Shown one piece after another: positions 4,056-24,073 of a stretch of DNA of 24,073 bases. Positions within the stretch are counted from its first letter, which is position 1, and every line of letters begins with the position of its first letter. The notes under the pieces were generated by a model. That model had not been told where the DNA came from. It worked only from the letters and a program-made list of their open reading frames with translations, and searched no databases. Position numbers and translations under genes: made by a program. Source of the DNA: a virus; the IMG/VR virus record IMGVR_UViG_3300009545_000275, positions 1-24,073 of that record; one strand, written 5' to 3'.

Positions 4056-5168
4056 TTATCGCTCCGCTTTGGTCACCACATCGAATGCGCCGGCGGTTGC
4101 CGTTCCGGCGACGGCGATTGCTGTCGGGACACCATTCAAGCGATCGCCGCCGGTGGAAGGCGTTAGATCCACATATGAGCCGGCCGTGGCCGCGCCGATG
4201 TTACCTGTCCATGTGCGCGATACGCCGTTCTGATTGGGACCGGTGACCGTCACGACTCCCGTGCCGTTAATGGTAACAGTGATTTTGCAGCGTGGTGTCA
4301 GGATCGGCGCGAAGGCCTGCGCAACGGGCATCGATCCCAAGTAGAGCGGATTACCGAAGGTGTTCAGCGTCCACTTGGTAAGGTCCGTGCCAGGCGTAAT
4401 ATTAGTTGACCCTGTGACTGCGACGTAATAGACGCCGCCTGAGATCACGACGTCCTTGGTCGAATAGGTGGTAGCACTGTTCCATGTGCCCTTCCAGGTC
4501 GTACCCGTGCCGCCTGTGTTCGTTGCTGCCGGTGTGGAGTAGCCATTCGCCGTCGGCCAGTTCGCGGAAGCGTTATTCGTCACTGTCCCGGCGTTGGCCC
4601 CGGTATAGGTGAACGTGGCCAGGCGCATATCCGCCGGCGCGAATACCGCGGCGGGACTGAGCTGAGCGCCGCCGTTGTTCGCATACCAGTACAGGGACGC
4701 AAATGAGGGACTGTAGAGCATCTGGTAAGCCAAGAGGCCGTTGAAGTAAGCGGCGTAGGTGTTCAGATCGTTCACGCCCGATATTCCGTCCGCCGATGCA
4801 TGCGCCGTGACGATCTTTCGGATCCCGTTCAAGACGGAGATCAGATTGGCATACTCCGCGGACCGATTCAGAAAGCCTGAGCCTGCCCCGAAGCTTCCGC
4901 CGCCCACGCCGATGCCTGTGAATGCGCCCCCGACGGAGATCCCGGCGGCGCTCAGCGTCGATGAACCTGCCGCCTTGATGATGCCCTGGAAATACGGCAG
5001 CCACTCCCCGAATTGATCCGGATCCGTGGACGCGAAGATGGTTGACAATTTTGGAACCAGCATCGCCGCGTTCAGGTTCGCAACGTCGATGCCTGGTGTG
5101 AACACGTCGATCAGCACGCCCAGTTGGTCGGTGAGCGTCTTCATGTCGGCCGGCTGGATAATGGTCAT
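4056..5168 (-). CDS. Tail protein with a CBM5/12-like module
   Basis: A 370-residue protein with no overall family recognised. Residues 1-165 look mostly helical, with a Gly/Ala-rich stretch at 74-98 (GISVGG..GIGVGGGSFGAG). Around 224-268 lies a carbohydrate-binding type 5/12-like module with conserved W, Y, V, Y and the PGTD.TKW ending, closely matching a module in the fibre at 365-2440. The C-terminal 100 residues look like a compact beta domain. ATG at 5168 is preceded by AAGGA at a normal spacing. It lies between the large distal tail protein and the Asp-box protein, so a baseplate or fibre-attachment role is plausible. The helical N-terminus could attach to the tail while the module binds glycan, but that is inference. 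Confidence 0.75.
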   Translation of the reverse strand: MTIIQPADMKTLTDQLGVLIDVFTPGIDVANLNAAMLVPKLSTIFASTDPDQFGEWLPYFQGIIKAAGSSTLSAAGISVGGAFTGIGVGGGSFGAGSGFLNRSAEYANLISVLNGIRKIVTAHASADGISGVNDLNTYAAYFNGLLAYQMLYSPSFASLYWYANNGGAQLSPAAVFAPADMRLATFTYTGANAGTVTNNASANWPTANGYSTPAATNTGGTGTTWKGTWNSATTYSTKDVVISGGVYYVAVTGSTNITPGTDLTKWTLNTFGNPLYLGSMPVAQAFAPILTPRCKITVTINGTGVVTVTGPNQNGVSRTWTGNIGAATAGSYVDLTPSTGGDRLNGVPTAIAVAGTATAGAFDVVTKAER

Positions 5169-5207: not shown

Positions 5208-6833
5208 TTAGAATAGGTTGTAAGCCCACCGGCCGAGCACGGTGGAGCGCATGACATGCGGATTGAGCACATGGAAGCGCGACGTCACCGATTCCACCAC
5301 AAGCGGAATGATGCCGCTGATCATCTCATTGTCTTCGTCGACGGCGTAGCGATCGAGTGCAAACAGGTTCGGCAGGAAGCAGCAGTCGTGACTCTCCCAG
5401 ACGTTTGGCAGTGTGATGCGGGAAAGGGCTGCGTAGGCATAGGCTTCCGTAAACACCGGATCGACAAATCGATTGGAGATCTTCACCAATGGATCTCGGA
5501 AGCCATGCACATTGGCAGTGTATCCCGGCAGGAAGTCATCGATATTGAGATAGGTTCCCTGGACCATATTGGTCGCTGGATCCAGGCCAAAGAACGCGAC
5601 TCCCGTTCGCAGATCGTCGGTATCAATCGTGAGGTTCTGCCGGTTCCACATGGAGCTGAGGAAGTCGCTGTTTGCCGGGTTGCCACTCTCCGATGTGTAA
5701 AACGTGCCCTTGTAAGGCGTCTGATACACGCCAGGGAAATAAGGCATGATCTGCGCTACCCCCTGCGAATCGCTCCACAGAACAGCGAACAGAATGTCGA
5801 GGATCTCCTGCAGCACGGAGAGGTACGTTTGTTCCGGCGACGGCGCGACCTTCGGATTCGTCCCAATTCCCAGCGGCAATTTCAGGTGCGGGCAGGACGG
5901 CGGATTGACGCCGAACGAGCAGGTCTTGAACGTGTCCGCAATGAAGTCGTCACTGCGCCCCTGCATGTTCATCACATAGCGCATGTATGCGAGGCAGCAC
6001 CAGCCGTCTCCCGGCTCCAGCACCATCGTTTGCACGCGCCCGAGCGGCCAGAGATTGTCATCGAGAACGCAGTCGAACTCCCGCAGTGGATCCGCCTTGG
6101 AGATGCGCCCACGGTGCCCGCCCCATCCCGTCATCAGATCGATCGGGGCAGACAGCGGCTGCATGGTGCCGTCTCCGGCCTGGTACTCCAACCACCGCGA
6201 GTATTTGACGGCCCGGTGCAGCCCAGCAAAACCGGAGAGATCCCCGTACGTGTTATCGAACTTGAGCGCGATCTGCGTCCGGACCAGTAGCGTGCTCCAG
6301 TCGAACCACTGTCTCTCCGATACCTCCGAAATCTTCGAGGAGATATCGATGATAGAGCCGATTGTGCTCGTATAGTCATACGTCGGCGGAATCCGCAGCT
6401 GGATCGTTGTGATCAGCGGTGACAAGAACACCGGATCGTCTGAGCCGCTGTTGATTTCGATGTAATACTTGACCCGCGTGCCCGTGAAGTCGATGGGATA
6501 GATCGCCCAGTTATACGAATAGCCTTCCGGGATTAGAGAATCTCCGAGACTGACCGATCCGTTGCCCTGATAAACGAAGGGGAGATCCAGTTCGCCGGAA
6601 TAGAGCTGCCCCGCCGACGCAAACTGCATGCCCAGATACTGGAACTGCGCCTGTCCGTTTTGACCCGAAAACCGCACCGGCCCCGCGATCATGTTGACGT
6701 TTGATGTGTACTGACGCGTAACGCCATCACCGCCAGACGGCTGCGTATTACTCGGGCGAAAAACGAGGGTCTCCTTGCCGTTGCCCAGGATCACGACCAT
6801 GGTGTTCTGACTTGGGAACGTGTGCCACGTCAC
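5208..6833 (-). CDS. Large distal tail (minor tail) protein, possibly missing its true N-terminus
   Basis: The annotated frame starts at GTG 6833, which overlaps the TGA of the upstream gene, and encodes 541 residues. It is beta-rich with several Trp/Tyr-rich blocks and no catalytic motif that I can identify; position after the tape measure suggests a distal-tail or tail-hub (Dit/Tal-like) protein. The Shine-Dalgarno match for this GTG is poor. The same frame stays open upstream to 7013 and reads as believable protein for at least 35 more residues (GENGVIGSNVQDCAKLFEQ, then NGRVIDV, directly continuing into TWHTFPSQN) but has no ATG, GTG or TTG there. The gene may therefore be the 3' part of a longer gene that includes 6830-7498 and is joined by a frameshift, natural or erroneous. 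Confidence 0.75.
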   Translation of the reverse strand: MTWHTFPSQNTMVVILGNGKETLVFRPSNTQPSGGDGVTRQYTSNVNMIAGPVRFSGQNGQAQFQYLGMQFASAGQLYSGELDLPFVYQGNGSVSLGDSLIPEGYSYNWAIYPIDFTGTRVKYYIEINSGSDDPVFLSPLITTIQLRIPPTYDYTSTIGSIIDISSKISEVSERQWFDWSTLLVRTQIALKFDNTYGDLSGFAGLHRAVKYSRWLEYQAGDGTMQPLSAPIDLMTGWGGHRGRISKADPLREFDCVLDDNLWPLGRVQTMVLEPGDGWCCLAYMRYVMNMQGRSDDFIADTFKTCSFGVNPPSCPHLKLPLGIGTNPKVAPSPEQTYLSVLQEILDILFAVLWSDSQGVAQIMPYFPGVYQTPYKGTFYTSESGNPANSDFLSSMWNRQNLTIDTDDLRTGVAFFGLDPATNMVQGTYLNIDDFLPGYTANVHGFRDPLVKISNRFVDPVFTEAYAYAALSRITLPNVWESHDCCFLPNLFALDRYAVDEDNEMISGIIPLVVESVTSRFHVLNPHVMRSTVLGRWAYNLF

Positions 6834-7498
6834 GTCGATAACGCGCCCGTTCTGCTCAAACAGCTTGGCGCAATCCTGGACATTGGATCCGATGACGCCG
6901 TTCTCCCCGTATGCGCCCCAGTACCAGCCCCGGCACCGTCCGGAACCCCTTGCTGCAGGAATGGCGGAAAGCCGGCCGATAATACAAGGCGGAACGGTGT
7001 GGCCCCAGAGCCGTCATCATCGGTTTGATCGCCCACGGAGATCTGGCACCAGTAGCGCGCGGCGTCCGGAACCGCGCCGGTTGCCGGCTGCCCGCGCCCG
7101 ATTCGGCAATAGAAGCCGGCATTCGCGGGATTGTGGTCAACCGTCGCGATGTCAAAGATCGCATCAACCGTCGAGTTCGTGAATACCATGCAGGCCTGCT
7201 GCGTCGTGCTGTCCTGCTGCTCCCGCCAATCGGATGCGCCGCCGGCCGGGAAGAACGTCTCAGCGGTCCCTGTCGGCGCAAGGACCTGCGACGCCTCAAA
7301 GATCACGCAAGCCGCTTCGGGAATCGCGCGCAGACCCGCCATCTGCACCGCGCTTTTCGTCTGTGTGATGTTGTCCTGCGTGTAGGGTGCCAGCAGGCTC
7401 ATGATCTCCGTGTGCGTGTACGGCGGTGTGCGTTGGAACCCGAAGGCTCGCACGGGCGTATCCACCAGCAATTGGAAGTTGGCTCGAAGTGAGGCCAT
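6830..7498 (-). CDS. Tail protein downstream of tape measure; C-terminal end in doubt
   Basis: A 222-residue frame starting at ATG 7498, with AGG at a usual distance upstream and a terminator before it. Residues 1 to about 170 look like a normal structural protein (for example FQRTPPYTHTEIMSLL). The last 45 or so residues become Gly/Ala-rich and then Ser/Arg-rich (SRIAPSCLSRTGALST), which is unlike the rest, while another frame over the same DNA reads as better protein in continuity with 5208-6833. One extra base in a G run (for example near 6929, in CCGGGGC) would fuse both into a product of about 763 residues. Its position directly after the tape measure fits a distal-tail protein. No family is recognised with certainty. 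Confidence 0.65.
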   Translation of the reverse strand: MASLRANFQLLVDTPVRAFGFQRTPPYTHTEIMSLLAPYTQDNITQTKSAVQMAGLRAIPEAACVIFEASQVLAPTGTAETFFPAGGASDWREQQDSTTQQACMVFTNSTVDAIFDIATVDHNPANAGFYCRIGRGQPATGAVPDAARYWCQISVGDQTDDDGSGATPFRLVLSAGFPPFLQQGVPDGAGAGTGAHTGRTASSDPMSRIAPSCLSRTGALST

Positions 7499-7580: not shown

Positions 7581-10301
7581 TTAGTGACCACCACCGATCA
7601 GGCCGCCACCGGCCAGGCCGCGCGTTTGAGAGTTGTTGCTCTGGATGGTTGCGCCGGGAGACGGCGGGCGGGCCGCTCCGCTCACTGCCCCGGAGTATTG
7701 GCGGAGCGCTTCTGTGAAAGAGGCTTTGAGCACGTCAGCAAGCGCCTGCAGGCTGAGATTGCCGGGCGCAATGTCATGCGTGGATTTCCCCGCCGTGCCC
7801 AAGGTGCCGACGTCGCCGCCCATTTGATTGAAGGTGCCCGGGTTGAAGAAACCGAAGTTCGCCGCCGCAACGGTTGGCGCGACGTTCTCAGTGTAGGCGG
7901 CCGCCTGGGAGTAAGTGGGCAAATAGCGCTGCGCGAACGACGTGCCCCCGAGTGTTACGGCCGGCAATTTGGCGAAAAAGCTGCGATCCATATCGTAGCC
8001 GATATGCGCTCGCTCCGTCAGAAGTCCTTGCCGCTGCCGCTCGTAGCTGTTCTCCTCAGTCTGGGTCAGGTGCCCGCCTTCCGCCTTTCGTTGATCCTCT
8101 TCCTGTGCGCCGAGCTCCGTAATCTCTCGGCCAATATCCGAAAACAGCCGGCCTCGGATCTGGTTGACGTTCCCAGATTCCATAAAGGAGAAGGAGGCGC
8201 GATCGAGAGCCCCACGGTCTTTGATCATGCTGCCGGCAAGTTCGGGAGCTGGCGAATAGTTCGTTGCATTGAGCCACCGTGCCGCGTTAGCCTGATCGAC
8301 TTTTGCGGCTTCCGAAGCAAACCGCGCCCGGTCCACCTCGCCGTAGTCGGCAACGTCATCGGACATGTCGAGCAGCTTCTTGCGGCTCACCGTGGCATCA
8401 GAAACGGCCTGCGCCGTCTGCAGTAGCCCTGCCCGCGATCCTCCGTTCAGCCGGTCCAGAGACGCATAGGAATCTGCCGCTTCAGCCCCGAAGGAGTCGA
8501 GCGCAACCATTCCGTTGTCCCTCGCCACAACATCGTTATGATGCTGAACAACCATCCGGGTTTGAACGTTATCTCGTTGCGCCTCAAGCTGCATGCGCTG
8601 ATCCAGCGTCAGGTTAGACTGCTTCAGGGCATTGGTGAGGGTCTCGAACTCCGATGTCAGCGCCTTAACGCTGGCCTCACCGGCCTGGTAGATTTCCTGC
8701 GGGCTGCCATTCGTTGCAATGCGCGTGGCCGCGTTCTGAAGCCGCGATACGCCCATCTCGTCTTGGCGAACGTCCTGCTCGATCGCGCCGAATCGGTAAG
8801 CGTTGTCCTGGGAAGCAGCTTGCGAGAGTTGATTGACGGCATCCGTGCGCATCCGAGCCCGCTCAGACGGCAATAGGCCAGGCTCCACGTTAGCTTCATT
8901 GTTGAGCCATCGAGCTATGCTCTTTGCATTGCCAGTGATGTCGTTTTCAACATTGGCCATGTCGTTATACGACTTGCCAGACAGCAGATTAGCAGTAAGT
9001 TCGTACTGAAGCCTGGACTGATTGAGAGCGTTCTCCGATTCGCGTGTGGCAATACCTGTGAGTGAGAAGCTTCGGACCGTCGACGGCTCTACAAGGCGAA
9101 GGCGATTTTCGTGCTGTTCGCGTTCCTCGATCTCACTTTCCCAACCCGCACGGTACTCTGCCGCTTTTGAGTTCTTCGGATCCAACTTGTCGAGGAATTC
9201 CCGATCCCGGGCAATAATTCGTTCATCTGCCGCAATACCCACGTTCGCAGCCTGGATGATGCCGGGAATCTGTGAAGCCTGTGCCTCCAGCGATCCGCCG
9301 GTCAGTACCGTTCTCTGAAAGCCGGATTGCGCTGTATCCAGCAGCGTTCCACTGCGTAGCACGTCGAAACGCGCCCCCTGATATCCGAGCATATCGGCTA
9401 CAGCGTCAGGAGAGGGTTGAGCGTGAGTACGCAGATAATTGGTTTGGTATTGATCCCGAGCGTTCTCGGCCGCTTGGATCGGATCAATACCAATCGATGG
9501 AGCAATCCAAGAAAGCCACGGCATCGTCTTATTGAGATTATGTTCAAGGCTCAGCACAGGATCTTGTTGAAGATCACTCGCCCTGTCGTAAAGCTTCTTA
9601 TATTGAGGGTCATAAGAAAGATTAGAAACAGCAACACCCATACGGGCGTTATTATAAGTATCCATGTCTCCACGCGCAAGCGCCAGATCTGCAACATTCT
9701 GGTAACCTTCACGTCCAATATCAGTGCCCTCAACACGAGAAAATCTATCTGCGGCCTGGTATAAAGCTGGATCACGAGCTAGGAATCCCCCGACAGATTT
9801 CGCAATTTCGCCGTAATATTCACCTGATGCAGTTGCCATCCGGCCGATCCCTGCAACGGATTCCGGCCCAATACCCGGAGACATAGCCTGTACAACTGCA
9901 ACCCCCTGTGCAAGTTGCTGCATTGGCGCATGCGTCGCCTCTAGGACGCTTTTAAATCTCTCTACGTTATCGGCGGCTGAGCCAAGAGCGCTTGCCAACC
10001 GCTCTGCTGTTTCGCGCTCGGTCTGCTGGCGTGTGTCGTTCGCGGTAATGGCGCTCTGAGCGATGTTACCCGCGCCTCCCAATATGGCTGCCCCTGCGAA
10101 CGGCCCGATCGGTGTCGCCGCTCCGATGAACGCACCCGCAAGCGTAGCAGCCCCAGGAAGCATACTGGCGAACGCGGAATCGGCCTGCTCAGGCGTAAAA
10201 TATGCGCCACTATTAAGGTCAGTATAGGCTGTGCCGCCTTCCTGGAAGAGCTGAGCCGCCCCGTATCCTGCGGCCATAGCGGTATCTGGTGAAATTCTCA
10301 T
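7581..10301 (-). CDS. Tail tape-measure protein
   Basis: The longest gene in the window: 906 residues from ATG at 10301 (MRISPDTAMAAGYG). The frame extends 21 codons further upstream, but those codons are made of the hairpin at 10326-10359, so the internal ATG is preferred; its Shine-Dalgarno site is weak. A hydrophobic Gly/Ala-rich stretch lies at residues 47-79 (LPGAATLAGAFIGAATPIGP and onward), as found in tape-measure proteins thought to act at the membrane during DNA delivery. The rest is mostly long Ala/Gln/Glu/Arg-rich helix, ending in a Gly-rich tail. Tape-measure length scales at roughly 0.15 nm per residue in siphoviruses, so a tail of about 130-140 nm would be expected. No peptidase or muramidase motif was seen. 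The segment 9541-9660 is only about 42% G+C, which may mark an exchanged block. Confidence 0.87.
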   Translation of the reverse strand: MRISPDTAMAAGYGAAQLFQEGGTAYTDLNSGAYFTPEQADSAFASMLPGAATLAGAFIGAATPIGPFAGAAILGGAGNIAQSAITANDTRQQTERETAERLASALGSAADNVERFKSVLEATHAPMQQLAQGVAVVQAMSPGIGPESVAGIGRMATASGEYYGEIAKSVGGFLARDPALYQAADRFSRVEGTDIGREGYQNVADLALARGDMDTYNNARMGVAVSNLSYDPQYKKLYDRASDLQQDPVLSLEHNLNKTMPWLSWIAPSIGIDPIQAAENARDQYQTNYLRTHAQPSPDAVADMLGYQGARFDVLRSGTLLDTAQSGFQRTVLTGGSLEAQASQIPGIIQAANVGIAADERIIARDREFLDKLDPKNSKAAEYRAGWESEIEEREQHENRLRLVEPSTVRSFSLTGIATRESENALNQSRLQYELTANLLSGKSYNDMANVENDITGNAKSIARWLNNEANVEPGLLPSERARMRTDAVNQLSQAASQDNAYRFGAIEQDVRQDEMGVSRLQNAATRIATNGSPQEIYQAGEASVKALTSEFETLTNALKQSNLTLDQRMQLEAQRDNVQTRMVVQHHNDVVARDNGMVALDSFGAEAADSYASLDRLNGGSRAGLLQTAQAVSDATVSRKKLLDMSDDVADYGEVDRARFASEAAKVDQANAARWLNATNYSPAPELAGSMIKDRGALDRASFSFMESGNVNQIRGRLFSDIGREITELGAQEEDQRKAEGGHLTQTEENSYERQRQGLLTERAHIGYDMDRSFFAKLPAVTLGGTSFAQRYLPTYSQAAAYTENVAPTVAAANFGFFNPGTFNQMGGDVGTLGTAGKSTHDIAPGNLSLQALADVLKASFTEALRQYSGAVSGAARPPSPGATIQSNNSQTRGLAGGGLIGGGH

Positions 10302-10359: not shown

Positions 10360-10382
10360 CGCAAATTAAGATCATATTTCAG

Positions 10383-16999: not shown

Positions 17000-17542
17000 T
17001 TACGTCTGGGCCCCGGTCTTCGTCCACGTTGGATTGAGTGCCGTCGTCGACGTGTTGATGTAGCTAATGCCGTTCGTGGTGTCGATCAGCATCGCTCCGG
17101 TGGGAGCAGTGCGGCCGGTCGCCGTGACGCCCGGCGTCGTCTCCGCAACGGCGACGGTCGGCGCGGTCCCGGTCAGGCTGTTGTCGGCGACAGTCATCGT
17201 CGGAACGGCGAGTTTGGCGAGGTTGCCGCCGGTAAACGTGGCCGTGGCCGTGCCGATTCCCGCTGTCATTGATCCGACAGCAATCACAATGCCCCCCACT
17301 CCCACGTTCGGCAAGGCCTCAAGAGCTGCGTCGATGTTGGCGATCAGCGTCGCATTCGTTGCGCTCCAGGCAATCGGACCAGTGACAAACCCGTCAAAAC
17401 CAAGTTTGAAGGTTCCGCCGGTCGGTGTGCCGCCAAGAGTGATCGTCTGAACTTCGGTCGTGCCGTTCACGGGCGCGCCGGCGTTTGTCAGCGGATTGCC
17501 CAGTCCGCTGCCCGGCATCACATTTCCGCCTTGTAGAATCAT
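17000..17542 (-). CDS. Capsid decoration / head fibre-like protein (probable)
   Basis: 180 residues from ATG 17542, behind an ideal site (GGAGG five bases upstream). Residues 27-135 are a beta-domain of the EVQTITLGGTPTGG type (with DAALEALPNVGVGG and ATATFTGGN), a repeat often seen in phage head-decoration and large surface proteins; here it occurs once. A short C-terminal part follows (GAMLIDTTNGISYIN). Downstream position after the major capsid protein supports binding to the outside of the shell. This is inferred from domain type and position, and a structural minor head protein is the main alternative. Confidence 0.55.
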   Translation of the reverse strand: MILQGGNVMPGSGLGNPLTNAGAPVNGTTEVQTITLGGTPTGGTFKLGFDGFVTGPIAWSATNATLIANIDAALEALPNVGVGGIVIAVGSMTAGIGTATATFTGGNLAKLAVPTMTVADNSLTGTAPTVAVAETTPGVTATGRTAPTGAMLIDTTNGISYINTSTTALNPTWTKTGAQT

Positions 17543-17554
17543 TGTTTTCCTCCG

Positions 17555-17584
17555 GCCGCCCTCACCAGTCGATCAGAGGGCGGC
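17555..17584 (-). promoter_or_regulatory. Hairpin between capsid and decoration genes
   Basis: Perfect nine-base arms GCCGCCCTC / GAGGGCGGC at 17555-17563 and 17576-17584, ending four bases before the GGAGG of the decoration gene. There is no T run, so it is unlikely to be an intrinsic terminator. It could slow the exonuclease decay of capsid mRNA or modulate translation of the next gene. Confidence 0.5.
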
Positions 17585-17603
17585 GCGAACGTCCGTAGCG
17601 GGT

Positions 17604-18836
17604 TTAGATGCCGGTCACGGTGCAGAACGCGGACGCGCGGTAGATCTCCAGCGACAGGCGGCTGTCGGCGCGAATGGCCAGGATGCCCGCGATGAAGTTG
17701 TTGCCATGGGAATCGCTGACGGCGATCGTGATCCCGAGACGGCGGCTGATGTGCGCGTACATCTGGAAGTCGCCGGTGAGGCCTGTGTTCTCCGTGGCCG
17801 CCGTCGTCGCGATGACAGGCAGGCCCCAGATCGTTTCCGGCCCCGCTTCGGCCGGGTTGCCCCAGATATACAGACCGTCAGCCGTGCGCAGCAGGCGAAT
17901 GTCCTGCCAGTCGTTGGGGTGCAAGACGACGCCGGTCGGGTCCGCGTAGCCGGTCCAGCGGACCTTCGTCATCGCCTTGTAGATCGCATCCGGAACCGGG
18001 TCCACGCCGAGTGCCTGCGTCTGAATGCCGGACTTGTTATAGAATCCCTGCAGCTGCGGCGAGGTGCCGGATCCGTTCAGGATCTGATCTTCTTCCTTCA
18101 GGCTGATCATCAGGCGCAGGCGGCTATCAATCAGACCGCGCAGGGCGGCCGTGTCCGCGACCTGCTCTTCGGTGACCGGGATGAAGGTGGAGATCTTCTC
18201 CACCGGGATCGTGCGCTCCGTGTAGGCCAGCGCCGATTCCGGGGAGGCCGCCGCTTCCGCCGTGGACGCCGCCGCGTTCGTGAAGGTGGTTTCCTCCATG
18301 TACTTGATCGCCGCGTACGGGGTATCGTCCTGCGGGATCAAATCGGCGATCATCGGGCGGCGCTGCGCGGAGAGAACCAGCTTGTCGCCGCGCGGGCTGA
18401 ACGGCGGATATCCGGCCGCGCTCGTCATCGTTGTCTTGAGGGAGACGTTCTCCAGTTCAACCTGAAACCGCTTGGTGGAGAAGGGCGCGACGCCCTTGTA
18501 TTCCTTGGAATCGATCAGGCTCTGACCAAGAGACTTCGCCTCACGGAACTGCTCGGACGGGTCGCCCTGGCGACCATCCTTGCCAAACTCCGGGCGCTGA
18601 ATGTGACCGGCCGCCTCCATCGCATCCTGCAGGTTCTTCGCGACGACTTCCGTCTCGCGCACCGCAAGCCAGTCCTTGCCGAGCTTTTCAAGCTCCGCGT
18701 TGCGATCGTTGACAACCTTCAGATCGTCGGTCGTCATGTCGTACTCGCCGGCGGCGTTCTTGTGGGTGTCGAAGAACGTCTTCAGTTCCTTGCGCTTCAC
18801 ATCCAGCTGCTCGCTGAGTTCTTTATATGTCGGCAT
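17604..18836 (-). CDS. Major capsid protein, HK97 fold
   Basis: 410 residues from ATG 18836 with AAGGA upstream. The first 75 residues form a charged coiled coil, like the HK97 delta (scaffold) domain removed by the prohead protease; the cleavage site cannot be fixed by eye but a boundary near residues 95-120 is plausible. The body shows the family pattern: RRPMIADLIP, then a TEAAASPES-type E-loop region near 190-200, KISTFIPVTEEQVAD, LRGLIDSRLRLMISLKEED, and ILNGSGTSPQLQGF. It follows the protease and is followed by a decoration gene, the standard HK97 order. It is the most G+C-rich part counted (about 63% over 17641-17760). Confidence 0.95.
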   Translation of the reverse strand: MPTYKELSEQLDVKRKELKTFFDTHKNAAGEYDMTTDDLKVVNDRNAELEKLGKDWLAVRETEVVAKNLQDAMEAAGHIQRPEFGKDGRQGDPSEQFREAKSLGQSLIDSKEYKGVAPFSTKRFQVELENVSLKTTMTSAAGYPPFSPRGDKLVLSAQRRPMIADLIPQDDTPYAAIKYMEETTFTNAAASTAEAAASPESALAYTERTIPVEKISTFIPVTEEQVADTAALRGLIDSRLRLMISLKEEDQILNGSGTSPQLQGFYNKSGIQTQALGVDPVPDAIYKAMTKVRWTGYADPTGVVLHPNDWQDIRLLRTADGLYIWGNPAEAGPETIWGLPVIATTAATENTGLTGDFQMYAHISRRLGITIAVSDSHGNNFIAGILAIRADSRLSLEIYRASAFCTVTGI

Positions 18837-18884
18837 TTTGTGTATCCTTGCGCTGTGCGCTGCTCATAAATCTCGGTAAGGAGA

Positions 18885-20102
18885 CTAATTGGTCTCGGTG
18901 AGGTCAACACCCCACTGCCGAGCCCGTGAAATTTCGAAGGCTATCCGGGCTGATTTCGCGCCCGCAAGATTGTCTGCCTCGGTCTCGGCGGATGCGCCGG
19001 TTTCCGTGGCGGATATCTCTGCGGTGGCGAGTTCGCCCAGGGCGTCCTGGAGGACTTTGATCTGCGCGGCCCGCTCCGGCGAGAGGGTGCGCTGATCTTT
19101 GGCGCGGATATCCTTGATGGACACGCCGCGCTCGATGCAGCCTTTCACGGCAGCAAGCGCCGATGTCAGCTGGTCGGCATAGGGACCCCGAGCAGGCGGG
19201 GCCGCTGATGCGTGAGAAGGGTCAGGCCAGAGTGTGCGAATCGACTTGGCAAGCTCCGTCGCCTCCTCGTCCGTCACATCGGCCATGAGCGTCTTAAAGG
19301 TGCGCAGGAAGATGGTCGTAAACTCCTGCAAGGTGGCTTCAAGCGTGGTCAGAGCTTCATCCAGAGGCGGCCGGACATACTCGTACTCGTCCGTGGTCGG
19401 ATTATAAACATAATCGCCGAATACAAGTTCATAGAGCACGTTGTAGAACAACGCGTCATCGAGCCGCCGCAGAGCCGCCATCGTCATCGACTGTTCGAGG
19501 TATTCGCCCAGATACTGCGCCTTGAACTCGGCATCCCGGTTTTTGACGTCGGTGGCGTTCGCGAGCGGATTGGCGGGCACGCTCACGATGGAGTACTCAT
19601 AGAGGTCGGAGATGTCCCAGATGCCCCGGCACTTGCTTTTCCACGCCGAGATTCCCGCGACGTCAAACAAGGACATGTCGCATCCCATCTCGCGGGCATG
19701 GGTCAGCAGGTCGTCTCCATTCGCAAACACCCGAGAGCCGTCTGGCGCAATCGAGAAGCCGATGGATAGGCCGACGCTCAGGCCGTTCGCCATACGCTCC
19801 ATACACTTCGTACGCAGGTCCTGCGCGTCCGCCGTAGAATGGAACTCACTCTCGGTGAAGAGGGAATTGCCCTGAACCTCAGCGACTAAAGGCATGCCGA
19901 TCATCTTCGACCAGTCGTGACTATCGGCCATAAATCCGGCGCTGAGAAAGCTGGTGAGACACGTCCCGAAGGCGATCGGATAGATGACGTCCCGGACATT
20001 GGCATTGTCGAGATTGCCCATCACGGACGCGACGCCGCGCAGCTTGTTACCGTCGAAGGCGGCATCCTTCAGCACATAAAGCTTTGGTTTTTCACGTTTC
20101 AC
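18885..20102 (-). CDS. HK97-type prohead protease with long C-terminal extension
   Basis: 405 residues from GTG 20102, chosen because GAGG lies six bases upstream and the longer frame would run into the terminator stem at 20128-20150. The protease domain covers about residues 1-185: His62 in ADSHDW, Ser113 in GLSVGLSIGF, and EYSIVSVPANPLA near 169-181, matching the serine-type prohead protease family that cuts the capsid scaffold during maturation. Family members are usually about 180-225 residues. The remaining 220 residues are helical and acidic (for example EATLQEFTTIFLRTFK, then a C-terminal Ala/Glu-rich helix), so an internal scaffold-like or partner-binding domain is likely. It precedes the capsid gene by 48 bases. 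Confidence 0.9.
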   Translation of the reverse strand: MKREKPKLYVLKDAAFDGNKLRGVASVMGNLDNANVRDVIYPIAFGTCLTSFLSAGFMADSHDWSKMIGMPLVAEVQGNSLFTESEFHSTADAQDLRTKCMERMANGLSVGLSIGFSIAPDGSRVFANGDDLLTHAREMGCDMSLFDVAGISAWKSKCRGIWDISDLYEYSIVSVPANPLANATDVKNRDAEFKAQYLGEYLEQSMTMAALRRLDDALFYNVLYELVFGDYVYNPTTDEYEYVRPPLDEALTTLEATLQEFTTIFLRTFKTLMADVTDEEATELAKSIRTLWPDPSHASAAPPARGPYADQLTSALAAVKGCIERGVSIKDIRAKDQRTLSPERAAQIKVLQDALGELATAEISATETGASAETEADNLAGAKSARIAFEISRARQWGVDLTETN

Positions 20103-20121
20103 AGGCCACCTCGGAGGCAAC

Positions 20122-20150
20122 AAAAAAGCCGCTACGTTTGCGTAGGCGGC
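20122..20150 (-). terminator. Intrinsic terminator between portal and protease
   Basis: In minus-strand RNA a nine-pair stem (arms 20150-20141 and 20136-20128, one bulged base, four-base loop) is followed by TTTTTT. It begins 15 bases after the portal stop. Its T run ends 19 bases before the protease GTG, and the ribosome site lies right behind it. The core GCGGCTTTTT is shared with 317-344 and 7523-7554. Confidence 0.85.
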
Positions 20151-20165
20151 AGGTCAAAAGCAGGG

Positions 20166-21467
20166 TCACGGCGTGGAATCGCCAGTGTCGGCGGACTTAT
20201 CAGGAACCGGCGCGGCCGGTTTCGGGCAGTACTGATTGCCCCGGGCGGTTTTGTCCGGCGGCTTCCCGGTCTCACTGCGGGCTTCGTTGAGTGTGGCAAT
20301 CCCGCCGGTGTACTCGATGACAGCCCGCTTCGACGCTTCCATGCGGTCCGGCTGCATCGACCGGACATTCTGGTAATTCCAGCGCAGGACTTGGTTCTCG
20401 GTCTTCTTAAAATCCGGCTTGAGTTGTCGGTTAATGGTTTTGACGAAACGCTTGCCGACCGGGATGAGGCAGTCTTCGTTCGCGGCTTCCCGCGCCTCTT
20501 TGTAGTTGCTGTACGTGCGCTGCGCATCGCCGACGCTCAGGCCGACAACCATTCCCGGCATCCGCAGTGCGCCGAGGATGCGCGCTTCCGGCACGATGCG
20601 GATCTTGTCGAGGGCGAGCTCTTCCGGGCTAAAGCTGAGCTTCTCGATGCGCACGGCGGCCGGCGCCACGATCGGATCGCCGCGGAAGTCGCCCGTAACG
20701 CGCTCTCTCCAGAGGGATTTAAGCTTTGCGGGGACACCGTCGCCGAGCACGCCCTCGGGACTGGCCGGAGTGATGATGACACCGGGAACACCCATGTTAT
20801 GGAGCAACGCGGCCGTGTACGTTGCCGATTCGTTGTCGGTCATGATCTCGCGCAGGACCGGCTTGAGACGGGCAAAGCCCTTCATGAGGTTGTCTGGATC
20901 CATACCGAAGCGGAAGTGGATCACATCCTCCGGAGGGAGCGCTTGCGGCCTCCCGCCCGGGCGATACTCAAAGTAATCGAGAAAGTTGGTGCTGTTCGGC
21001 AGACGGCGCGGCTCGACCTGCCAGTGCGGCAGATACCAGAGCTCCTTGATGTAGCCGTAGCCGTCGCGCGCCTTGTACCAATAGGCGTTGCCGTCCGTGC
21101 AGTAACTGAGGATCGTCGCCGCCCAGAGGACATCGTCATCGTAGTACGAGTTCGGGTTCTGGATCAGATCGACAAGCGGATGATCGGGAACGGCCGCCGT
21201 GGTACCGTCGTCCTGGGTCGTGACGACCTCCAGTTCCGCCTCAGGCAGGTTATCCGAAATCCAGCCGATACAGATAGAAACGGCGCTATTGAGCCACAGA
21301 TCGCCAGCCTTCTCTTTGTAGTCGATCTGGGAACCGGGGAGCATCACGCGCCAGGGATTGCCGCCGTTGCTGCCGACCGTCCCGTTGCCCCATGAGAGGC
21401 TGAATCCCTTACGAACGGCCTCCAGACCACCCTGCAGCCGTGAAGCGATTGCTTTTGTGTTTAGCAT
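20166..21467 (-). CDS. Portal protein, HK97 type
   Basis: 433 residues (HK97 gp3 is about 424) from ATG 21467, which directly abuts the TAA of the 42-residue gene. Family features: an early helical segment, LNSAVSICIGWISDNLPEAE-type helix after residue 58, a NAYWYKARD loop followed by LWYLPHWQVEP, a EDVIHFRF strand, and the central helices around PEARILGALRMPGMVVGL. Portals form the dodecameric ring at one head vertex through which DNA enters and leaves. It precedes the protease and capsid genes in the usual order. Confidence 0.95.
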   Translation of the reverse strand: MLNTKAIASRLQGGLEAVRKGFSLSWGNGTVGSNGGNPWRVMLPGSQIDYKEKAGDLWLNSAVSICIGWISDNLPEAELEVVTTQDDGTTAAVPDHPLVDLIQNPNSYYDDDVLWAATILSYCTDGNAYWYKARDGYGYIKELWYLPHWQVEPRRLPNSTNFLDYFEYRPGGRPQALPPEDVIHFRFGMDPDNLMKGFARLKPVLREIMTDNESATYTAALLHNMGVPGVIITPASPEGVLGDGVPAKLKSLWRERVTGDFRGDPIVAPAAVRIEKLSFSPEELALDKIRIVPEARILGALRMPGMVVGLSVGDAQRTYSNYKEAREAANEDCLIPVGKRFVKTINRQLKPDFKKTENQVLRWNYQNVRSMQPDRMEASKRAVIEYTGGIATLNEARSETGKPPDKTARGNQYCPKPAAPVPDKSADTGDSTP

Positions 21468-21596
21468 TTACGGCTTCGCCCTCAGCGTCCCCACGATGTA
21501 CAGGTAAAGCAGCCACAGGCCAATCCCGCAGAGACCAATGACGACAATGCCGGCGGCGGCAGCGACCATGTACAAAAATAGGAGGAATGGTGTCAT
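21468..21596 (-). CDS. Small membrane peptide between terminase and portal
   Basis: 42 residues, beginning MTPFLLFLYMVAAAAG and ending YIVGTLRAKP. ATG (21594-21596) overlaps the terminase stop by four bases (ATGA) and its TAA abuts the portal ATG, so it fills the gap between those genes exactly. Nearly all residues 4-36 are hydrophobic, giving one long or two short membrane helices, with a positive C-terminus (LRAKP). No strong ribosome site lies upstream, so it is probably translated by coupling. Function is unknown; a holin-like or membrane-anchoring part is possible but not supported by length or neighbours. Confidence 0.65.
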   Translation of the reverse strand: MTPFLLFLYMVAAAAGIVVIGLCGIGLWLLYLYIVGTLRAKP

Positions 21597-23227
21597 TCGA
21601 ATGTCACGACCTTGCGACTGGTGAAGAGGTGATCCGGGGCAGCACACAACACAAAGCCGTCGCCGTCGTCCGGACTGCGCATCTTGCGCTTTTTGAATGC
21701 TTTCTTCTCTTCAAGCTTCTTCACGGAGACGCCGGACTTGTTCACCCAGTCATACGTGCGTTCGGTGAGATCGCCTTCGAGCGCCTCCGGTGGATTGTCC
21801 ACACGGATGCCCTTCAGGGTTTCGGCCGCTTCCGCGTAAAGCTCGGTGATCACATCGGCGTAGGCCGTCTTGTCGTGAGGCGGCACACCGAAATGCACCA
21901 TGATCACGCGGCGGTTCTCTTCCGGGAAGGCTTCCAGGAACTCGCTGTCGAGCTTGAGGTGTGATGTGACACCGTTGCCGAAGCCGCCGCCGGCGTCAAT
22001 GCGAATCTGGATGTTCGTCACACCCAGCGACTTCAGATGCAGAGCCGCCTGCTTGACCCTACGGGCGTAGTCGTCGTAGTCCTGTCGCCAAATCTGAGCG
22101 AAGCGCCACACGCGGCCGTTGTGCCGAATGTAGATCGTCCCGTAGTCCTTGCCGAACCCCGCCACGTCGACACCGATGCGTCCTTGCGCCCGGTCTTCGG
22201 CCGGCGCTGCACGTTTGCAAGCTGCCTCATACCGGCCGAATGGAACGAACGTGTTGTCGGCAACGTTGGACGGCGCGATGCCCAGGACGCGCCACAAGAA
22301 CTCTGGATAGGGTTTAAAGATCGTCCCGCCCGGCCGCTCCGCGCCGTGAACGGTCACCGGAAACGGCAGGGTGAATGTCTGTTGATCCTCGTCATGCTCG
22401 GGCACGATCTCGGTCAGCAGCTCGACCATCTTGCGTACATAATCGCGCTGGACGGCTCCCGGCACGATCTCGCGGTCGGTGAGCACATTCGGATGGTTAA
22501 CGCAGCTGATCCGAAACGATGCCGTGTCCGAGCGTCCTGCCTGCTTGTGAAAGAGTGAGCCGCGACTTTTCGGGTTGGCGAGCATCAAGACGATGCTGAT
22601 GCCGCCCGAGGTCATCGACTCGACCGCGCCGTACACGAAGTCGGCAACGCCCTCGGCCTCATCAAGCACGAACATCAGGTACTTGCCGTGCTGGCCCTGG
22701 ACGCGCTCCGTACCCTTACCGCCGCTATCGTTGGTCGCGCGCCCCTTGGCGAAGTGATTCGGCTTGTACTTGATCTCGCACGTCTGCAGCACGCGGCCGG
22801 GCAATCCCTTGCCCTCGCGGTCGGTCTCGATTTCCTTCCAGAGAAGATCTTTGATGGACTCCCAGCCCGGCGCATAGCTGTAAATGATTGAGGGACAAAA
22901 GCAGTCGAAGAAGTGATTGAACAGGCCGCTGGCGAGCTTGGTTTTGCCGACCGTGTGGCCTGCTTCAATGCGAATGCGGTTCTTGATGACTTCGCCCGGC
23001 CGCCAGTACTTCAGGTCGGCTTCGGCAATCAGGCCCTTTTTGAAGTCGGCTCGCTCATGCTGTTGGCGGAGCGCCAGCACGTAGGCGTTGATGACTTCGA
23101 CCTGTCCGGGCGTCGCTTCGCTGCCCTCCCATGGCTCCCATCCGAGCTTTTCGCGGATGTAGCGCACGGGATCGTACTGGTATTCGGAAAGGTCCGCATT
23201 GGTGAAGTCGCGCCGGGCCCGGCGCAT
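21593..23227 (-). CDS. terL: Terminase large subunit (packaging ATPase/nuclease)
   Basis: 544 residues from ATG 23227. An upstream in-frame start at 23326 is rejected because those codons lie inside the small-subunit gene. The ATPase domain has Walker A at residues 89-96 (AGHTVGKT, the GHxxGKS/T form common in phage terminases), Walker B near 185-190 (MFVLDE; D189, E190) and a coupling motif LMLANPKSRGS near 214-224. The nuclease domain has Asp354 in GVDVAGFGKD, Asp411 in IRIDAGGGFG and a late acidic cluster near 520-523 (SPDDGDGF), matching the RNase H-like metal site. It drives DNA into the prohead through the portal and cuts concatemers. The ribosome site is weak, so it may depend on coupling to the preceding gene. 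Confidence 0.94.
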   Translation of the reverse strand: MRRARRDFTNADLSEYQYDPVRYIREKLGWEPWEGSEATPGQVEVINAYVLALRQQHERADFKKGLIAEADLKYWRPGEVIKNRIRIEAGHTVGKTKLASGLFNHFFDCFCPSIIYSYAPGWESIKDLLWKEIETDREGKGLPGRVLQTCEIKYKPNHFAKGRATNDSGGKGTERVQGQHGKYLMFVLDEAEGVADFVYGAVESMTSGGISIVLMLANPKSRGSLFHKQAGRSDTASFRISCVNHPNVLTDREIVPGAVQRDYVRKMVELLTEIVPEHDEDQQTFTLPFPVTVHGAERPGGTIFKPYPEFLWRVLGIAPSNVADNTFVPFGRYEAACKRAAPAEDRAQGRIGVDVAGFGKDYGTIYIRHNGRVWRFAQIWRQDYDDYARRVKQAALHLKSLGVTNIQIRIDAGGGFGNGVTSHLKLDSEFLEAFPEENRRVIMVHFGVPPHDKTAYADVITELYAEAAETLKGIRVDNPPEALEGDLTERTYDWVNKSGVSVKKLEEKKAFKKRKMRSPDDGDGFVLCAAPDHLFTSRKVVTFE

Positions 23228-23237
23228 CGGGTTCTGT

Positions 23238-23876
23238 TCATCGTCCGGACGGCTGAGTGTCGAGTTCGATGCGACCCCAGCGTTCCTCGATATCGTCGAG
23301 AAGCTTGGTTTGTAGGTCAGGGTCATCGACGTGTGCCTGCGTTGCCATCAGAACCTGCTCCGCGTACTGATCGAGGATCGTCTTCACCCGGCTCATCGAC
23401 AATGCGCCTTTCTCACGGCGTTTCTCAATCCGGTCCACCATCGCGCCGATCCGGTCCAGCAGCGCGGTTGCATCGGCAATGTCCGGGACCTTCGTCGGCT
23501 TGTAAGTGCGCTCCGGGTTCTGATAGCTTTCATGCCAGGCGATGATGGCTTCCACGAGTTCGTCGTAGCGCTCGATCCAATCCACAGTGAGAGAGCGCAG
23601 CATCTTCAGGTCCGCGGTGAGGTCGAGAGGATCGTCGAGCGCATCACACGCGGCGAGCAGCTCCACGATACGCGGCCGTTTGATCTGCGAGTAGAGGCCA
23701 TGTGTCGGTGGCCGTCCTCCGCCGCCGTTGTGCTTCTTGCAGCACCCCTGCCCCACATGCGCCGTCCCGTGTCCAGCCTTGTTCTTGCAGGGCTCGCCGT
23801 TGTCCTTGATCCAGCCACACTTACCGGCGGCACGGGCGTCGAGGTCGGTTGTGCTGGGGTTGGGTTCGTAGGGCAT
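23238..23876 (-). CDS. Terminase small subunit (probable)
   Basis: 212 residues from ATG 23876; a longer TTG start four codons earlier is less likely. Residues 20-49 carry a zinc-finger-like pattern (C20 in KCGWIK, C30 in PCKNKAG, H40, C45/C46 and H49 in GCCKKHNGG), a form seen at the N-terminus of several phage small terminases (G-x-P-C then C-x-x-H-G). The rest is helical, with a probable coiled coil (for example RIGAMVDRIEKRREKG) that would support the oligomer. It lies directly before the large subunit, 10 bases away. The protein recognises the packaging site on DNA. Confidence 0.8.
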   Translation of the reverse strand: MPYEPNPSTTDLDARAAGKCGWIKDNGEPCKNKAGHGTAHVGQGCCKKHNGGGGRPPTHGLYSQIKRPRIVELLAACDALDDPLDLTADLKMLRSLTVDWIERYDELVEAIIAWHESYQNPERTYKPTKVPDIADATALLDRIGAMVDRIEKRREKGALSMSRVKTILDQYAEQVLMATQAHVDDPDLQTKLLDDIEERWGRIELDTQPSGR

Positions 23877-23930
23877 AGTGCTATCCAATCACTATCAAGA
23901 TCTCAACACCAAATCGCTGAAGAATCTAAG

Positions 23931-23983
23931 ATACAGCCTCGGTGGACACTTCCCGGTGACCGCCGAGGCTGTGTCTTTTTTTC
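23931..23983 (+). terminator. Strong rightward intrinsic terminator
   Basis: A long stem with outer arms 23931-23945 and 23960-23974 (15 pairs including two G-T) and, past one mismatch, three more inner pairs, followed on the plus strand by CTTTTTTT. The other strand has no T run, so it works for rightward transcription only. It lies between the small terminase start (23876) and the rightward gene starting at 24029, so it stops rightward read-through or attenuates a leader transcript of that gene. Confidence 0.85.
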
Positions 23984-24028
23984 GGGGTGAAATATGCCCC
24001 GCGACTGATGGCCCCGAAAGGATAGTTT

Positions 24029-24073
24029 ATGGAAACTTGGGACGTTCTCAAGGCCGTTGAGCAGCATCAGGCA
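24029..24073 (+). CDS. Rightward gene, N-terminal fragment
   Basis: ATG at 24029 opens a frame to the window end (METWDVLKAVEQHQA, 15 residues). AAAGGA at 24017-24022 gives a clear ribosome site six bases before the ATG. It is the only rightward gene in the window and is divergent from the packaging and head unit. Too little remains to assign a function. The terminator at 23931-23983 lies between it and any promoter further left, so a promoter should lie between 23984 and 24028 or transcription must pass the terminator. Confidence 0.55.
   Translation, partial: METWDVLKAVEQHQA

Follow-up and report, generated by a model that had tools for sequence, protein, structure and literature searches.

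The window analysed takes in all 24,073 bases of IMG/VR virus contig IMGVR_UViG_3300009545_000275. Its minus strand carries a head-tail cluster made up of terminase, portal, protease, capsid, connectors, tail genes, and fibres. After the tape-measure gene lie two called genes on the minus strand, here termed frame A (7498-6830; 222 amino acids [aa]; start ATG 7498) and frame B (6833-5208; 541 aa; start GTG 6833), which share a GTGA stop-start overlap at 6833-6830. The initial annotation proposed that the two frames belong to one protein, disrupted by a single base in a G run. As it described, the open stretch of frame B reaches from 7013 to 5208, and ATG, GTG, and TTG codons are absent from it ahead of GTG 6833; the end of frame A is Ser/Arg-rich where frame B reads as natural protein (GWYWGAYGENG...). 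The GGGG run that it named is present in a G-rich stretch, at 6931-6928 rather than at 6930-6927.

Relatives were sought with several queries. As single queries against viral contigs, frame A, frame B, the tape measure, and the major tail protein gave no match, and frame B gave none against phages, plasmids, and bacterial genomes. The capsid query returned 80 loci, whose tail modules were unrelated to that of the window except for one near-identical contig (L002/G001; IMG/VR contig 3300025914_000468), which ends before the tail genes. A terminase query led to contig G046, where a single open frame spans both A and B, and an alignment search with the B part yielded three further distinct relatives, one of them as two near-identical records.

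Frames A and B together correspond to a single open reading frame (ORF) without internal stops in four distinct related phages and one near-duplicate record. The ORF is 766 aa long in IMG/VR contig 3300005614_000082 (L102/G046), 771 aa in L099-L100/G048-G049 (L100 being IMG/VR contig 3300010371_000002), 758 aa in 3300045253_000047 (L101/G050), and 765 aa in 2831870349_000004 (L103/G051). Each matches the window in frame -1 and then in frame -3, with the junction at about 6929-6926; the A part aligns with the first 190 or so residues in the relatives at 41 to 45% identity and the B part with the remainder at 47 to 53%, so that both window parts are collinear, end to end, with the four distinct relatives. 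The place of the gene is also the same, after the tape-measure gene and before genes of the 4056-5168 type or fibre genes, and the order tape measure, tail gene, 4056-5168-type gene was seen in G046, G049, G050, and G051. The initial annotation had suggested looking for one gene of about 760 residues in relatives and estimated a fused product of about 763; each relative holds exactly one such gene, of 758 to 771 residues. Relatives encoding two separate proteins with the ends seen here were also looked for, and none was found. The window copy thus differs from the L102/L100/L101/L103 family in using two frames where the family members use one and, as far as its sequence tells, is a broken or misread member of that single-ORF family.

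Codon usage places the change of frame independently of the relatives. Under a codon model trained on 14 other genes of the window, the coding signal follows frame A to about 6930 and frame B thereafter; the likeliest change point is 6929, after codon 190 of A (runner-up, 6932), and a two-gene model, in which frame A is kept as far as its stop, fits less well by 22.8 bits. Over 6935-6834, the codon likelihood is 19.4 bits higher in frame B than in frame A, compared with a maximum of 14.3 and a median of -29.8 in 5,801 control windows (overlapping, matched in length and offset, and taken inside genuinely coding frames). In the same interval, G+C by codon position is 0.59/0.44/0.79 in frame B, which is the profile of the real genes in the window, and 0.44/0.79/0.59 in frame A. 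When the switch point was slid along the alignments to the four relatives, the optimum again fell at 6929, with 6926 one unit lower and all other positions at least 25 units worse. The two independent methods, codon usage and alignment to relatives, therefore agree on 6929.

Both lines of evidence assign the 5' part of a single tail gene to 6929..7498 (minus strand; frame A, codons 1 to 190) and its 3' part to 5208..6929 (minus strand; frame B, 573 codons plus stop), with the frame-change site, net one base short and G-rich, at 6926..6940 (minus strand). The remainder of the called gene 6830-7498, AGTGAHTGRTASSDPMSRIAPSCLSRTGALST (6830..6928, minus strand), is a spurious out-of-frame end, since its Ser/Arg-rich sequence shows no conservation and scores at shuffle level against all four relatives. 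Frame B, by comparison, scores 85 to 126 against the relatives over the first 32 residues upstream of GTG 6833, where shuffled maxima are 43 to 50. With these 32 conserved in-frame residues ahead of it, the GTG called as the start of 5208-6833 (6831..6833, minus strand) is best read as a codon inside the complete gene. We conclude that 6830-7498 and 5208-6833 are almost certainly halves of one tail gene of about 763 codons with a broken frame, much as the initial annotation had supposed and as the uninterrupted ORFs of the relatives support. In the contig, the frame is one base short within about 6940-6926, inside the G-rich stretch, so that translation in frame A would run into the spurious Ser/Arg-rich end and stop at 6830.

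Because related phages carry the gene whole, the most likely cause is an error in the sequence or a mutation of recent date, and not a new mode of decoding. Of the three options listed initially (error, mutation, and programmed frameshift), the first two are retained and the third is now unlikely. We infer, with modest confidence, that the missing base is a sequencing or assembly error in the contig. With the exception of the tape-measure gene and the chaperone pair described below, the other genes of the window that have relatives match them in one frame, so there is no sign of general decay, and an otherwise clean contig speaks for an error or for a mutation that is very recent. The overlap of the near-identical contig G001 with the window is confined to 17227-24073, short of the frame-change site; over these 6,847 bases the two agree without mismatch, a single gap lying 7 bases from the end of G001.

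A genuine one-base mutation, in the virus or in a defective prophage, would leave the gene truly broken in the DNA and is a plausible, if less probable, account. Its main argument is that a second gene of the same contig, the tape-measure gene, is interrupted too, as in a decaying prophage. The break there is an insertion of low G+C content that has ORFs of its own and a terminator-like hairpin; G-rich runs are, besides, ordinary sites of replication slippage. Against it, no such lesion occurs in the other genes with relatives, and codon usage is undecayed on both sides of the switch. Between the two, we lean towards an error in the contig.

A programmed -1 ribosomal frameshift, or transcriptional slippage, giving a short product of 222 aa and a long one of 763 aa is very improbable, even though the shift is in the -1 direction and coincides with a short G run. 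All four relatives keep a single frame with no frame change, and X-XXY-YYZ heptamers are absent throughout frame A (7498-6830), which bears out their reported absence. Predicted downstream RNA folding equals that of shuffled sequences (z of 0.05, in a model of pseudoknot-free structures), and transcriptional slippage usually takes a longer run than four G. Near the switch, G GGG AGA at 6908 is the sole self-compatible slip; it was rejected as lying too far downstream, since the conserved WYWG motif upstream of 6908 is already in frame B and would be lost. The tail assembly chaperones G/GT of phage lambda are made by a programmed -1 frameshift, and the A/B pair shares with them that direction and a position in the tail gene cluster; unlike G/GT, it lies after, not before, the tape-measure gene, has no slippery heptamer, and is not conserved. 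Lineage-specific frameshifting at a non-canonical G-run site, yielding truncated and full-length forms of the tail protein, is more improbable still. The reading as two real genes, which the GTGA overlap at first recommends by its resemblance to the start/stop overlaps of coupled phage genes, can practically be dismissed: conserved frame B residues lie upstream of GTG 6833, the two-gene arrangement occurs in no relative, and the overlap carries little weight, because wherever frame A ends in TGA, frame B necessarily reads NTG, and a start-like codon is expected three times in four by sequence reasoning.

The product of about 763 codons is probably a structural tail protein. A tail-tip or baseplate role is likely from its position, because the gene directly follows the tape measure and precedes the fibre genes. 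Family models in Pfam, PHROGs, and NCBIfam gave no convincing match for this family of tail proteins of about 760 aa (window and L099-L103); a weak PDB profile match to a lectin was obtained (E value, 6e-4 over 53 residues), and the AlphaFold model of an intact relative had a mean pLDDT of 33 and was unusable. For annotation, the outcome is a correction, with one tail protein in place of two and no new recoding event, and naming of the protein family can usefully begin from the four intact copies in related phages.

Several neighbouring features were recorded. A candidate programmed -1 site, C CCT TTG (12054-12048, minus strand), is a strict in-frame heptamer within 12446-11746, a candidate G/GT-type tail assembly chaperone pair that precedes the tape-measure gene, as expected of such a pair. 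The -1 frame of the chaperone is conserved in G046 and G049, where the matching place reads T TTA AAG and T TTA AAA, respectively.

The tape-measure gene is seemingly split across 11742-10300, where relatives have one ORF of 1,086 to 1,270 aa. A 133-aa ORF (11742-11341) has its conserved N-terminal motif, whereas its body begins only near 10300. The two parts are separated by lower-G+C DNA with a 59-aa ORF, a 123-aa Cys-rich ORF (10754-10383) with a possible zinc ribbon (weak Pfam matches), and a strong terminator-like hairpin (10359-10326). The listed TTG start of ORF 10364-7581, at 10364, adjoins or falls inside this hairpin, and ATG 10300 is the likelier start of the tape-measure body.

The putative fibre genes 4056-5168 and 365-2440 have a common short module (46% over 50 residues), and 365-2440 also has CBM_5_12 and LamG-like matches. 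At the other end of the window, contig 3300025914_000468 adds about 15.8 kb to the virus, in which HTH-type and DnaB-like genes were recognised by eye.
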